This document shows positions 5,329-29,059 of a stretch of 64,000 bases of DNA, piece after piece; position 1 is the stretch's first letter, and each line of letters begins with the position of its first letter. The stretch covers positions 310,001 to 374,000 of the forward strand of contig DASTDE010000004.1 in assembly GCA_035710515.1 (NCBI GenBank). Reading direction: 5' to 3'. The stretch is from Candidatus Rubrimentiphilum sp. GTDB taxonomy: Bacteria > Vulcanimicrobiota > Vulcanimicrobiia > Vulcanimicrobiales > Vulcanimicrobiaceae. The notes beneath the pieces are model-generated. The model worked only from the letters and a program-made list of their open reading frames with translations. It was not told the DNA's origin and did not search any database. Position numbers and translations under genes: made by a program.

Positions 5329-6366
5329 CTAGTCCGTAATGGTTCCGGCTGAAGTCGTTTGGCCTGGACCCACAGTTATTGCGGGACCAAAGATGACGTC
5401 ACGTTTCGAAGCCGAGCCTTTCGCAGAAGAGTGCGCGCCCGCCGCATTGGTGTATGAATTGTAGATTCGAATTTGATACGTGTCGGACGGCAGCGTGTGA
5501 AGGTCGAATCCGCCCGAGGCATCCGTCGCAACCGTGTTGCCGACGTTGCCCGAGGATCCGATCGCGACGACCACTGCACCGCTCACGCCGTTGCCGTTCG
5601 AACCAACCACCGTACCGGTGATGTGGCCCGAGTTCGAGTTGCCTGCAACGAAGAGCGTCGGGCGGACGGAGATGCTGTTAGTGGCGATGCCGCCGCTGGT
5701 GTCCATCGGCGTGATGCCGCCGCTGGAGATGCCGCCGCCGGTGTCGTTGCCGGTGGAGAGCGATTCGAGAAGATTGAAGTCGATGTTCACGAGCTCGGCA
5801 GCGCTCGCGCCGATCGTGAAACTCTGCGTGTTGGTGATCGCAACGAGTCCGTGCCCGGCCGACGTGGTCCGCGTCGAGTTGCCTGCGCCTGAATCGCTCG
5901 AGGTGTTCCGGCCATAGGCGAAGTTGAGCGACGCGGTCGAGTTATCGGCATAAATGGCTTGGCTTGCCGCCGGGTCGACGACGAAGCGAATCTGGCCGTA
6001 CGTGCGCTGGGTGTTGCTAGTCTGACCGACGGCCGCACCGGATCCGCCTTGGTATTGCAGGACGTCGACGATGAGCGGGCTGCTGTACTGAGCGACGACC
6101 AGGAACCGGCCGGAGCCGTCGGTGGCGTCGACTTCGCGAATGGCGAGATTGAAGTGAGCGAGTTGTTTGCCGGAGAGGGTGGGCGCGGCGTCGCCGATCA
6201 GGAAGCTTGTGGCGATGCCGCCGTGAGTGTCGAGCGGAGTGATGACGCCGGGCGGGTTGTTGTTTGAGGCAAGGAGCGCCGGCGTGGACGATTGCCCATG
6301 CATAGAGCACGCCGCCGGCACAAAGGCCAAAAGCGTTACGCATAACGCTGAAAAATGTCGTCTCAA
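5329..6366 (-). CDS. Secreted lipoprotein-like protein with carboxypeptidase-regulatory (Ig-like) C-terminal domain
   Basis: Probably exported and anchored by lipid: an N-terminal hydrophobic stretch ends in PAACSMHG with a candidate lipobox cysteine at about residue 20. The start is TTG at 6366, chosen because a GGAGG lies nine bases upstream and no better start exists. The roughly 100 C-terminal residues read like a carboxypeptidase regulatory-like beta-sandwich (GHITGTVVGSNGNGVSGAVVV, then FDLHTLPSDTYQIRIY). A short motif occurs twice, TPLDTHGGIATS near residue 43 and TPMDTSGGIATN near residue 216, suggesting duplication of a surface segment. Function is not known. It stands just downstream of the LuxR gene on the other side and diverges from the alr unit. 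Confidence 0.6.
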   Translation of the reverse strand: MRRHFSALCVTLLAFVPAACSMHGQSSTPALLASNNNPPGVITPLDTHGGIATSFLIGDAAPTLSGKQLAHFNLAIREVDATDGSGRFLVVAQYSSPLIVDVLQYQGGSGAAVGQTSNTQRTYGQIRFVVDPAASQAIYADNSTASLNFAYGRNTSSDSGAGNSTRTTSAGHGLVAITNTQSFTIGASAAELVNIDFNLLESLSTGNDTGGGISSGGITPMDTSGGIATNSISVRPTLFVAGNSNSGHITGTVVGSNGNGVSGAVVVAIGSSGNVGNTVATDASGGFDLHTLPSDTYQIRIYNSYTNAAGAHSSAKGSASKRDVIFGPAITVGPGQTTSAGTITD

Positions 6367-27115: not shown

Positions 27116-27168
27116 CACCACTACGCACCACTTTGCACCACTATACGCCCTCAGCAGGGTGAAGGCAA
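27116..27168 (-). promoter_or_regulatory. mraZ promoter with three-box MraZ-type operator
   Basis: On the plus strand caccact occurs at 27116-27122, 27126-27132 and 27136-27142, an exact 10-base period. On the coding strand this reads as three AGTGGTG boxes. Known MraZ operators are short TGGG- or AAAGTG-type boxes in direct repeat with about one helical turn between them, so these fit. TTGCCT (27168-27163), 17 bases and TATAGT (27145-27140) form a housekeeping promoter whose -10 box overlaps the outermost repeat. Confidence 0.7.
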
Positions 27169-27283
27169 GATTAAGAAACCACTGGAGATTACTGATCGAA
27201 CTGATGTTCGATACGCCTGCCGCATAAAAACGCCGGCGCGTTGCCGCAGTTATCGCAAACTTTTCGAACGAACGGGAAGCAAT

Positions 27284-29059
27284 ATGCCCGCTAGCCGCGC
27301 CTTGAGGATCGGCTCCATCATTCTGTTCACCGGATTTCTGCTGCAAGCGCGGGCCGCGGCAGCTCCGTCATATACTCCGATCGATCCGGTCATGGCGGAT
27401 CGCACGATCGTTCTGACAGGCAAGTCGCTGACGGTCGATCAAGTGATCGCGATTGCGCGGTACGGTGCGCGCGTTCAGCTGAGTGCGGAAGCCAAGCAGC
27501 GCACCGCCGACGCATACGGCTTGCTGATGGAAGCCGCGACCGAAAACGTTCCGGTCTACTGGTTCAATCGTGGCGACGGGCCCGATCGTCACGTGGTGAT
27601 CTTCAGCGGCGATCCGGACTCGCCGCAAAATAAGGCGCTGCTCGCCAAGAAGCAGCTCGATGCTTTGCGGCGCGGTGCAGTGCAAGGTTATGGTCCGGAG
27701 ATTTCTGATGAAGAACTCGTGCGCGCGATCATGGCAATTCGCGTCAACACGATGACGTACGAAGCGGCCAGCCCGCAGCTCACGCAGATGCTGCAAGACC
27801 TCCTGAACAAACGCGTGACGCCGGTCGTGCAATCGCGGGGCACGGTTGGCGAGGGCGATCTCGCGACGATGGGCAACATCGGCGCGACCATGGTCGGCAG
27901 TGGCGATGCATACTATCGCGGCGTGCGCATGTCCGCGGCGCAAGCGCTCGAGCGAGCCGGCTTAAAACCCCTGCAGCCGGGCGCCGCCGACGATGGCGCG
28001 CTGACCTCGACCAACGCCTATGCGGCCGCGCAAGCTGCACTACTTGTGAATGATGCGCGCCTCACGCTGGAATGGGCCGACCTCATCTATGCGATGGACC
28101 TGCTCGGCATGAACAGCACCGTTACGCCGCTTGCAGCGCCCGTCCAGGCAAACCGGCCATTCAAATGGTTGAACTTTGATGCGCACCGCGTTCTGAACAT
28201 ACTCAAAGGGAGCTACCTCTTCGATCGCGATCCGCTGCGCATTATCCAAGATCCGGAAAGCCTGCGAGCATCGCCGCAACGCCAAGGGTCGGCATGGGAA
28301 GCGTGGGGGCGACTGCGCGACGATCTTCAACTACAGATGAACTCTTCCGATCACAATCCAGCCGTGCTCGTAGGCGCTTCGCCCACCGATTCTTGGGAGA
28401 TGAGCACGCCGGCGATGATGCAGTACTACGTCAAGGGCGGTCCGCACAGCCACGGACAGCACGGCTACGTACTGTCCACTGCGAATTGGGATCCGTATCC
28501 GCTCGCGAACAGCGTCGAAGCGCTCACAATCGCGCTGGCAAATATGGATGTTGCGGTCGCGCAGCGCATCGATCGCTTCACCAACACGTTCTTTACTGTC
28601 GTCAGCCCGGCGGACGTGCTCGGCCGCACGCCGGCCGATCCCCCGATGCAAGCCTTCACGCCGTACCTGCGCGCCGATCTCTGGCAGCAGATCGCGGATT
28701 CGATGAATCCCATTTCGCCCAACGGCGATGCTATTGTCGCCGGCGTTGAAGATCTGCAAGGACATACGCGTCTGAAGCTGGCGCGCGCCCGCTCGGCAGT
28801 GGAGACGACGATGCAACTACTGGGGCTCGATCTGCTCAACGCAAGTTACTGGATGGACTTGCGCAAACGGCAAGACGCGACACGGAGCTTCGGAACCGCG
28901 CCCGCCACAGCGTTAACCGCCCTGCGAAAGGCCGTGCCGTGGGACTCGGCTGACCGGCCCGCGGGGCCTCTGGGCGAAGCGGCATACGCTTTCATGCGGG
29001 AGCACCCGGCCGCGGAGTTCTACCCGGCCGAAACGCCCCCGCAGGCGCCCTCGTTGTAA
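27284..29059 (+). CDS. Exported histidase/phenylalanine-lyase-fold protein lacking the MIO triad
   Basis: The 591-residue protein (ATG 27284) has a signal peptide ending near QARAAAAPS and then a full aromatic amino acid lyase fold: VQGYGPEISDEELVRAIMAIRVNTM, LASPQ-type region ASPQRQGSAWEAW and MNSSDHNPAV match the conserved blocks. In family members an Ala-Ser-Gly triad inside GSVGASGDLAP cyclises into the MIO cofactor. Here residues 186-193 read GTVGEGDL, one residue shorter, with Glu-Gly where Ala-Ser-Gly should be. The usual TGFG loop is also changed, to NRGDG. Normal ammonia-lyase chemistry is therefore unlikely. It diverges from mraZ and precedes a lytic transglycosylase and lptF, so an envelope role is possible. 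Function unknown. Confidence 0.8.
   Translation: MPASRALRIGSIILFTGFLLQARAAAAPSYTPIDPVMADRTIVLTGKSLTVDQVIAIARYGARVQLSAEAKQRTADAYGLLMEAATENVPVYWFNRGDGPDRHVVIFSGDPDSPQNKALLAKKQLDALRRGAVQGYGPEISDEELVRAIMAIRVNTMTYEAASPQLTQMLQDLLNKRVTPVVQSRGTVGEGDLATMGNIGATMVGSGDAYYRGVRMSAAQALERAGLKPLQPGAADDGALTSTNAYAAAQAALLVNDARLTLEWADLIYAMDLLGMNSTVTPLAAPVQANRPFKWLNFDAHRVLNILKGSYLFDRDPLRIIQDPESLRASPQRQGSAWEAWGRLRDDLQLQMNSSDHNPAVLVGASPTDSWEMSTPAMMQYYVKGGPHSHGQHGYVLSTANWDPYPLANSVEALTIALANMDVAVAQRIDRFTNTFFTVVSPADVLGRTPADPPMQAFTPYLRADLWQQIADSMNPISPNGDAIVAGVEDLQGHTRLKLARARSAVETTMQLLGLDLLNASYWMDLRKRQDATRSFGTAPATALTALRKAVPWDSADRPAGPLGEAAYAFMREHPAAEFYPAETPPQAPSL

Follow-up and report, generated by a model that had tools for sequence, protein, structure and literature searches.

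The window analysed here, a 64,000-nucleotide stretch of a Candidatus Rubrimentiphilum sp. contig, carries a gene for a protein with the aromatic amino acid lyase fold that lacks the MIO-forming triad. The gene is divergent from mraZ, and genes for a lytic transglycosylase, lptF and lptD lie downstream, a setting that an earlier sequence-only reading of this DNA had described correctly as regards mraZ, the transglycosylase and lptF. The features are listed below. Column counts were taken over 37 clade members, 6 ergothionase-like proteins and 12 histidases and are lower bounds, some rows being partial or locally misaligned. The roles of residues (catalytic, binding or substrate-facing) were assigned from established histidase work, which we take to hold here.

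27149..29027, no strand assigned: inserted segment in the spacer between mraZ and the transglycosylase gene; boundaries approximate, right boundary 29027-29052
27284..29059, plus strand: MIO-less aromatic amino acid lyase-fold protein (P0001), 591 aa (ORF translation, PF00221, best PDB match ergothionase 6s7j)
27284..27364, plus strand: predicted Sec-type signal peptide, about residues 1-27, N-terminus MPASRALRIGSIILFTGFLLQARAAAA-PSY (inspection and hydrophobicity)
27557..27559, plus strand: Tyr92, equivalent to histidase Tyr53, the presumed catalytic base position (histidases 12/12, ergothionase-like proteins 6/6, clade 32/37)
27566..27580, plus strand: NRGDG replacing TTGFG; Arg96 in 36/37 clade members and in the Treponema denticola ergothionase
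27839..27862, plus strand: GTVGEGDL (residues 186-193) replacing the MIO-forming GSVGASGDL (translation, alignment)
28007..28018, plus strand: S-T-N-A motif, compare ergothionase S-C-N-A, replacing the histidase N195 region (LNGTQ) (alignment)
28247..28267, plus strand: QDPESLR, with Gln322 and Arg328 as histidase Q277 and R283, and Glu325 versus histidase Tyr280 and ergothionase Leu
28373..28471, plus strand: subclade-specific insert, residues 364-396, with Lys384 and His393 (alignment)
28487..28489, plus strand: Trp402 replacing histidase and ergothionase Phe329 (column counts)
28748..28750, plus strand: Glu489, counterpart of histidase Glu414 (alignment, column counts)

We assessed the gene and its altered motifs. 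The PF00221 profile is matched from end to end by residues 49-548 (317 bits against a curated cut-off of 27.3), and Foldseek comparison to solved members of the fold returned E-values down to 3e-28. The protein is thus an aromatic amino acid lyase by fold, complete apart from its motifs as the sequence-only reading had stated. The two replacements which that reading reported were also recovered: Ala-Ser-Gly is changed to Glu-Gly, which makes the segment one residue shorter than in the genome's own histidase, and residues 92-99 read YWFNRGDG where TGFG is expected. The same genome encodes a normal HutH (G000:C3) with GSVGASGDL and TTGFG intact, and all 12 true histidases of our set carry the triad as ASG, CSG or ACG. 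The window lyase has neither Ala-Ser-Gly nor Cys-Ser-Gly, and its TIGR01225 hutH score of 176.8 bits is below the cut-off of 539, so it does not qualify as a histidase. A sequencing indel whose correction would restore Ala-Ser-Gly was ruled out: the deletion is in frame, and GE-[GA]-D is common to all close homologues, which come from independent assemblies. On residue conservation we likewise rejected a decayed gene or pseudoenzyme, as 37 clade members carry the altered motif together with the other catalytic residues.

We compared the protein to lyases of known structure. The best PDB sequence match is the ergothionase of T. denticola (6s7j, E = 2.7e-49), followed by a histidase (2.1e-27). 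An AlphaFold2 model of the window lyase (pLDDT 85.6, pTM 0.86) has the same ergothionase as its best Foldseek match (E = 3.2e-28, TM 0.87 on the target); histidases rank below it. In the alignment, 6s7j carries both altered motifs, with NRGVG for TGFG and RSSIGEGD at the MIO segment. Ergothionase works without MIO and its product is trimethylamine (PMC13405746). As judged by sequence comparison, the missing triad is therefore a trait of a known enzyme branch, that of ergothionase, and the new chemistry suggested by the sequence-only reading is mostly set aside, since MIO-free elimination is known from an enzyme that has both motifs.

A maximum-likelihood tree was built with the columns of both motifs removed and with histidases as the only outgroup. 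In it, all the MIO-less sequences group together (100/100), separately from the true histidases, so the Glu-Gly motif does define a clade, and the combination of features that had looked like a singular oddity is shared by a clade. With GE[GA]D in place of the MIO triad, the window lyase groups with ergothionase. Its subfamily is a clade of its own within the MIO-less clade (100/100), on a stem of 1.74 changes per site, in which the window lyase pairs with the copy of another genome of the same family, G007. Close relatives (52-62% identical) occur in Steroidobacteraceae and other Gammaproteobacteria and in Rhodospirillales, and some are plasmid-borne (Paracoccus aminophilus pAMI4 and one Rhizobium ruizarguesonis plasmid). 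Carriers are rare, with 2 of 149 genomes in the window's own phylum and 7 of 196 in one order of bog and soil Gammaproteobacteria. We conclude that the window lyase is not a unique oddity: its subfamily, undescribed so far and mostly proteobacterial, falls within an MIO-free enzyme type that is already known. Some genomes hold multiple copies, with a maximum of six, and divergent motifs (YGLNRG, GESD, GEAD) were seen among the copies of G063 (L115, L116, L117) and G264 (L082, L084-L088). From their sequences, several divergent copies per genome suggest several substrates.

Plasmids of Sinorhizobium, Polaromonas, Paracoccus and Burkholderia carry MIO-less proteins that are more distant from the window lyase, at 28-34% identity. 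This proteobacterial ergothionase-like group, which includes proteins of S. meliloti pSymA and of Paraburkholderia, shares G[EAQ][GA]D and mostly signal-like N-termini with the window lyase but differs in having Leu at position 325, often a urocanase homologue next door, joined in one genome by a hydantoinase-like ORF. The T. denticola ergothionase (6s7j/6s7q) resembles the window lyase in fold, GEGD, NRG, S-x-N-A and the Tyr, Gln, Arg and Glu positions, whereas identity is 27-30%, the long insert of the window's subclade is missing, and the match begins at chain residue 3, which leaves no space for a signal peptide. HutH (PF00221, TIGR01225) shares the fold and several active-site residues, but in the window lyase Ala-Ser-Gly, MIO and TGFG are absent and His83 and Tyr280 are replaced. 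The MIO-dependent tyrosine and phenylalanine ammonia-lyases and aminomutases have the superfamily fold but also the MIO triad, and are less similar than ergothionase by both sequence and fold.

The signal peptide noted in the sequence-only reading is borne out, as a prediction, by inspection and hydrophobicity of the N-terminus. A hydrophobic, signal-like segment precedes the domain in 34 of the 35 clade members with a readable N-terminus, the exception being the R. ruizarguesonis member. We considered export as a hallmark of the window's subclade alone and dropped the idea, because most of the proteobacterial ergothionase-like proteins of the sister group, including at least four of its five proteobacterial members in the tree, have signal-like N-termini too. 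The R. ruizarguesonis protein, a basal clade member without a signal peptide encoded on plasmid pRlX3 (L045:9980-11656), is flanked by ABC transporters, an acetate-CoA ligase-like gene and an ornithine cyclodeaminase.

We examined how the gene came to lie beside mraZ. In four genomes of the same genus (G001, G002, G005, G006) and one of the same family (G010), mraZ is directly beside the transglycosylase gene with no lyase between them; the spacer in the same-genus genomes is 184-238 bases. Spacer similarity to the sister genomes ends near 27148 and resumes at 29027-29052. Because this similarity breaks off and resumes, and because the lyase is absent from the sister genomes, the window lyase gene is a lone acquired insertion. 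Its position beside mraZ and lptF, not being shared with congeners, carries no information on envelope function, and the envelope role that had been read from this setting falls away as an accident of insertion. A role in cell division or LPS transport was ruled out on the same arrangement of the sister genomes and because in G007 the lyase gene lies elsewhere, next to pabA-like and flagellar genes. In G008, a related genome, the spacer holds a different stretch of ~1.4 kb (L112:4789-6148) with a 196 aa ORF (5408-5998) and no lyase; the spacer may be a recurrent insertion site. A foreign source found no support in codon usage, which in the insert is like that of the host and neighbouring genes.

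The column counts show which active-site positions are kept. Tyr92, Gln322 (histidase Gln277), Arg328 (Arg283), Asn358 and Glu489 (Glu414) are retained in all three groups. The S-x-N-A motif is present in the MIO-less groups, and Ala-Ser-Gly or a near variant is restricted to histidases. Two positions separate the window's subclade from both other groups: Glu325 (32/37) corresponds to Tyr280 of histidases and to Leu in the ergothionase group (6/6), and Trp402 (33/37) corresponds to Phe in the ergothionase group (6/6) and in histidases. Leu and Phe, the residues expected for the ergothionase branch at these positions, are thus not those of the window lyase. Within the insert, Lys384 is found in 31 and His393 in 32 of the 37 members.

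We compared 23 stretches around members of the window's subclade to 8 around members of the sister group. A urocanase homologue, the link to thiourocanate breakdown expected of the ergothionase branch, is near 5 of the 8 sister-group loci and was detected in 0 of the 23 subclade neighbourhoods; the loci are not independent samples, and the contrast is suggestive and not a formal test. Carrier genomes have one urocanase each, except for G064 and fragments, and the extra urocanase of G064 adjoins that genome's sister-type lyase. Among the 23 subclade loci, the neighbours comprise TonB-dependent receptors (9), a PhnD-like protein with a fatty-acid-desaturase-like protein (7), GcvT/DAO proteins of the dimethylglycine-dehydrogenase type (3), TauD (2) and an NCS1 permease with aldehyde dehydrogenase (2); TPR-sulfotransferase, MFS transporter and sulfatase-like genes also recur. 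These are catabolic and uptake genes, which do not name the ring of the substrate. The metabolite:H+ symporter beside several subclade loci shares 52-60% identity with its counterpart at sister loci. From these neighbourhoods, the two groups seem to act on related substrates but to feed the products into separate pathways.

Four subclade loci (L121:3918-13601, L123:3455-13160, L124:3471-11896, L118:5256-12276) have a cassette of TonB receptor, TPR-sulfotransferase, lyase, PhnD-like protein (without an obvious signal peptide), desaturase-like protein and MFS transporter. At four sister-group loci (L149:1828-6404 in G064, L146:3755-8554, L049:4940-9548, L147:3857-8566), the order is urocanase homologue, metabolite:H+ symporter and lyase with a signal-like N-terminus, and at one sister locus the lyase is followed by the hydantoinase-like ORF, named from sequence only. 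The sister-group loci of this order are likely a catabolic operon of an exported ergothionase. A PhnD-like partner was sought in the window's own genome and gave no match, so the function of the lyase there may differ. That genome also has an EgtD-type methyltransferase (L150:5158-6153, G000:C1).

Taken together, we propose, with a probability of about 0.6, that the window lyase is a periplasmic enzyme of the ergothionase branch that catalyses beta-elimination without MIO, acting as a trimethylamine-lyase on an aromatic betaine that is probably not ergothioneine. After export, the enzyme would bind the betaine, or N,N,N-trimethylated form, of an aromatic amino acid; Tyr92 would take the beta-proton and Arg328 would hold the carboxylate. 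Trimethylamine would then be expelled without covalent activation, leaving an aryl-acrylate in the periplasm. Histidases would depend on MIO because ammonia leaves poorly, whereas the quaternary trimethylammonium would be a good leaving group; the tertiary amine departs easily without MIO, which would thus be dispensable. The choice of trimethylamine as leaving group follows ergothionase, a relative with only about 27-30% identity. Glu325, Trp402, the insert with Lys384 and His393 and the lack of urocanase neighbours in the 23 stretches suggest a ring other than the thio-imidazole of ergothioneine. Candidate substrates would be the betaines of tryptophan, tyrosine or phenylalanine, the indole and phenol betaines being the simplest. 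We note that a substrate is established for ergothionase, and that the window's subclade is characterized here by comparison. A literature search for betaine lyases besides ergothionase returned nothing usable. More tentatively, and at somewhat less than even odds, the activity may be a new one: an exported MIO-free trimethylamine-lyase of soil and bog bacteria for a non-imidazole aromatic betaine (e.g., hypaphorine or tyrosine betaine), with a dedicated operon of TonB receptor, PhnD-like protein, desaturase and transporter, that releases trimethylamine in the periplasm.

The protein could instead be a periplasmic ergothionase or hercynine lyase proper, its subclade differences being neutral or tuning affinity. 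The nearest characterised relative is an ergothionase that has Arg96 of NRG and S-x-N-A in common with it, and the host lineage may be able to synthesise hercynine or ergothioneine, since EgtD is encoded by 54 of 60 related genomes as well as by that of the window. Hercynine or ergothioneine synthesis may be ancestral in this lineage; we discounted EgtD as a substrate clue because a gene so widespread is uninformative on two lyase carriers. We consider this alternative unlikely, because the subclade differs, through Glu325, Trp402 and the long insert, at positions that in histidase face the substrate, urocanase-like neighbours and extra urocanases are confined as described above, and the stem branch is long. 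Expulsion from an aromatic compound of another good leaving group (e.g., another quaternary amine, a sulfonium or a sulfate ester) is improbable. MIO loss requires merely a leaving group that needs no activation, and the subclade loci repeatedly have sulfotransferase, sulfatase-like, PhnD-like and TauD genes nearby, but the TPR-sulfotransferases travel with TonB receptors and may belong to those, the sole characterised MIO-less relative expels trimethylamine, and betaine-type transporters and GcvT/DAO demethylation enzymes are also nearby. A non-catalytic binding protein in the envelope, as the sequence-only reading had proposed from the missing triad and the predicted export, is very improbable given that Tyr92, Gln322, Arg328, Asn358 and Glu489 are retained even in divergent members, that the branch includes an active MIO-less enzyme and that members are located in catabolic operons. 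What stands of that reading is the motifs, including their clade-defining character, the fold and the export signal; the binding protein and the envelope link do not.

Ergothionase is known in few genera, and divergent homologues were left uncounted in a survey (PMC13405746). The comparison of G[EAQ][GA]D to ASG provides a simple test that separates MIO-free lyases from ammonia-lyases, and our results suggest export signals for most proteobacterial MIO-free lyases. They also single out a subfamily that has a conserved operon and probably a new substrate; if our proposal is true, trimethylamine in soil would have a periplasmic source that has gone unrecognised. Where the distant MIO-less proteins are annotated, they are labelled as ammonia-lyases of histidine or of aromatic amino acids, a name that implies both the wrong chemistry and the wrong compartment. 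The S. meliloti pSymA gene annotated hutH (L046:7944-9584) has GSVGQADM at the MIO triad and a signal-like N-terminus, and its label is probably a misannotation as histidine ammonia-lyase.
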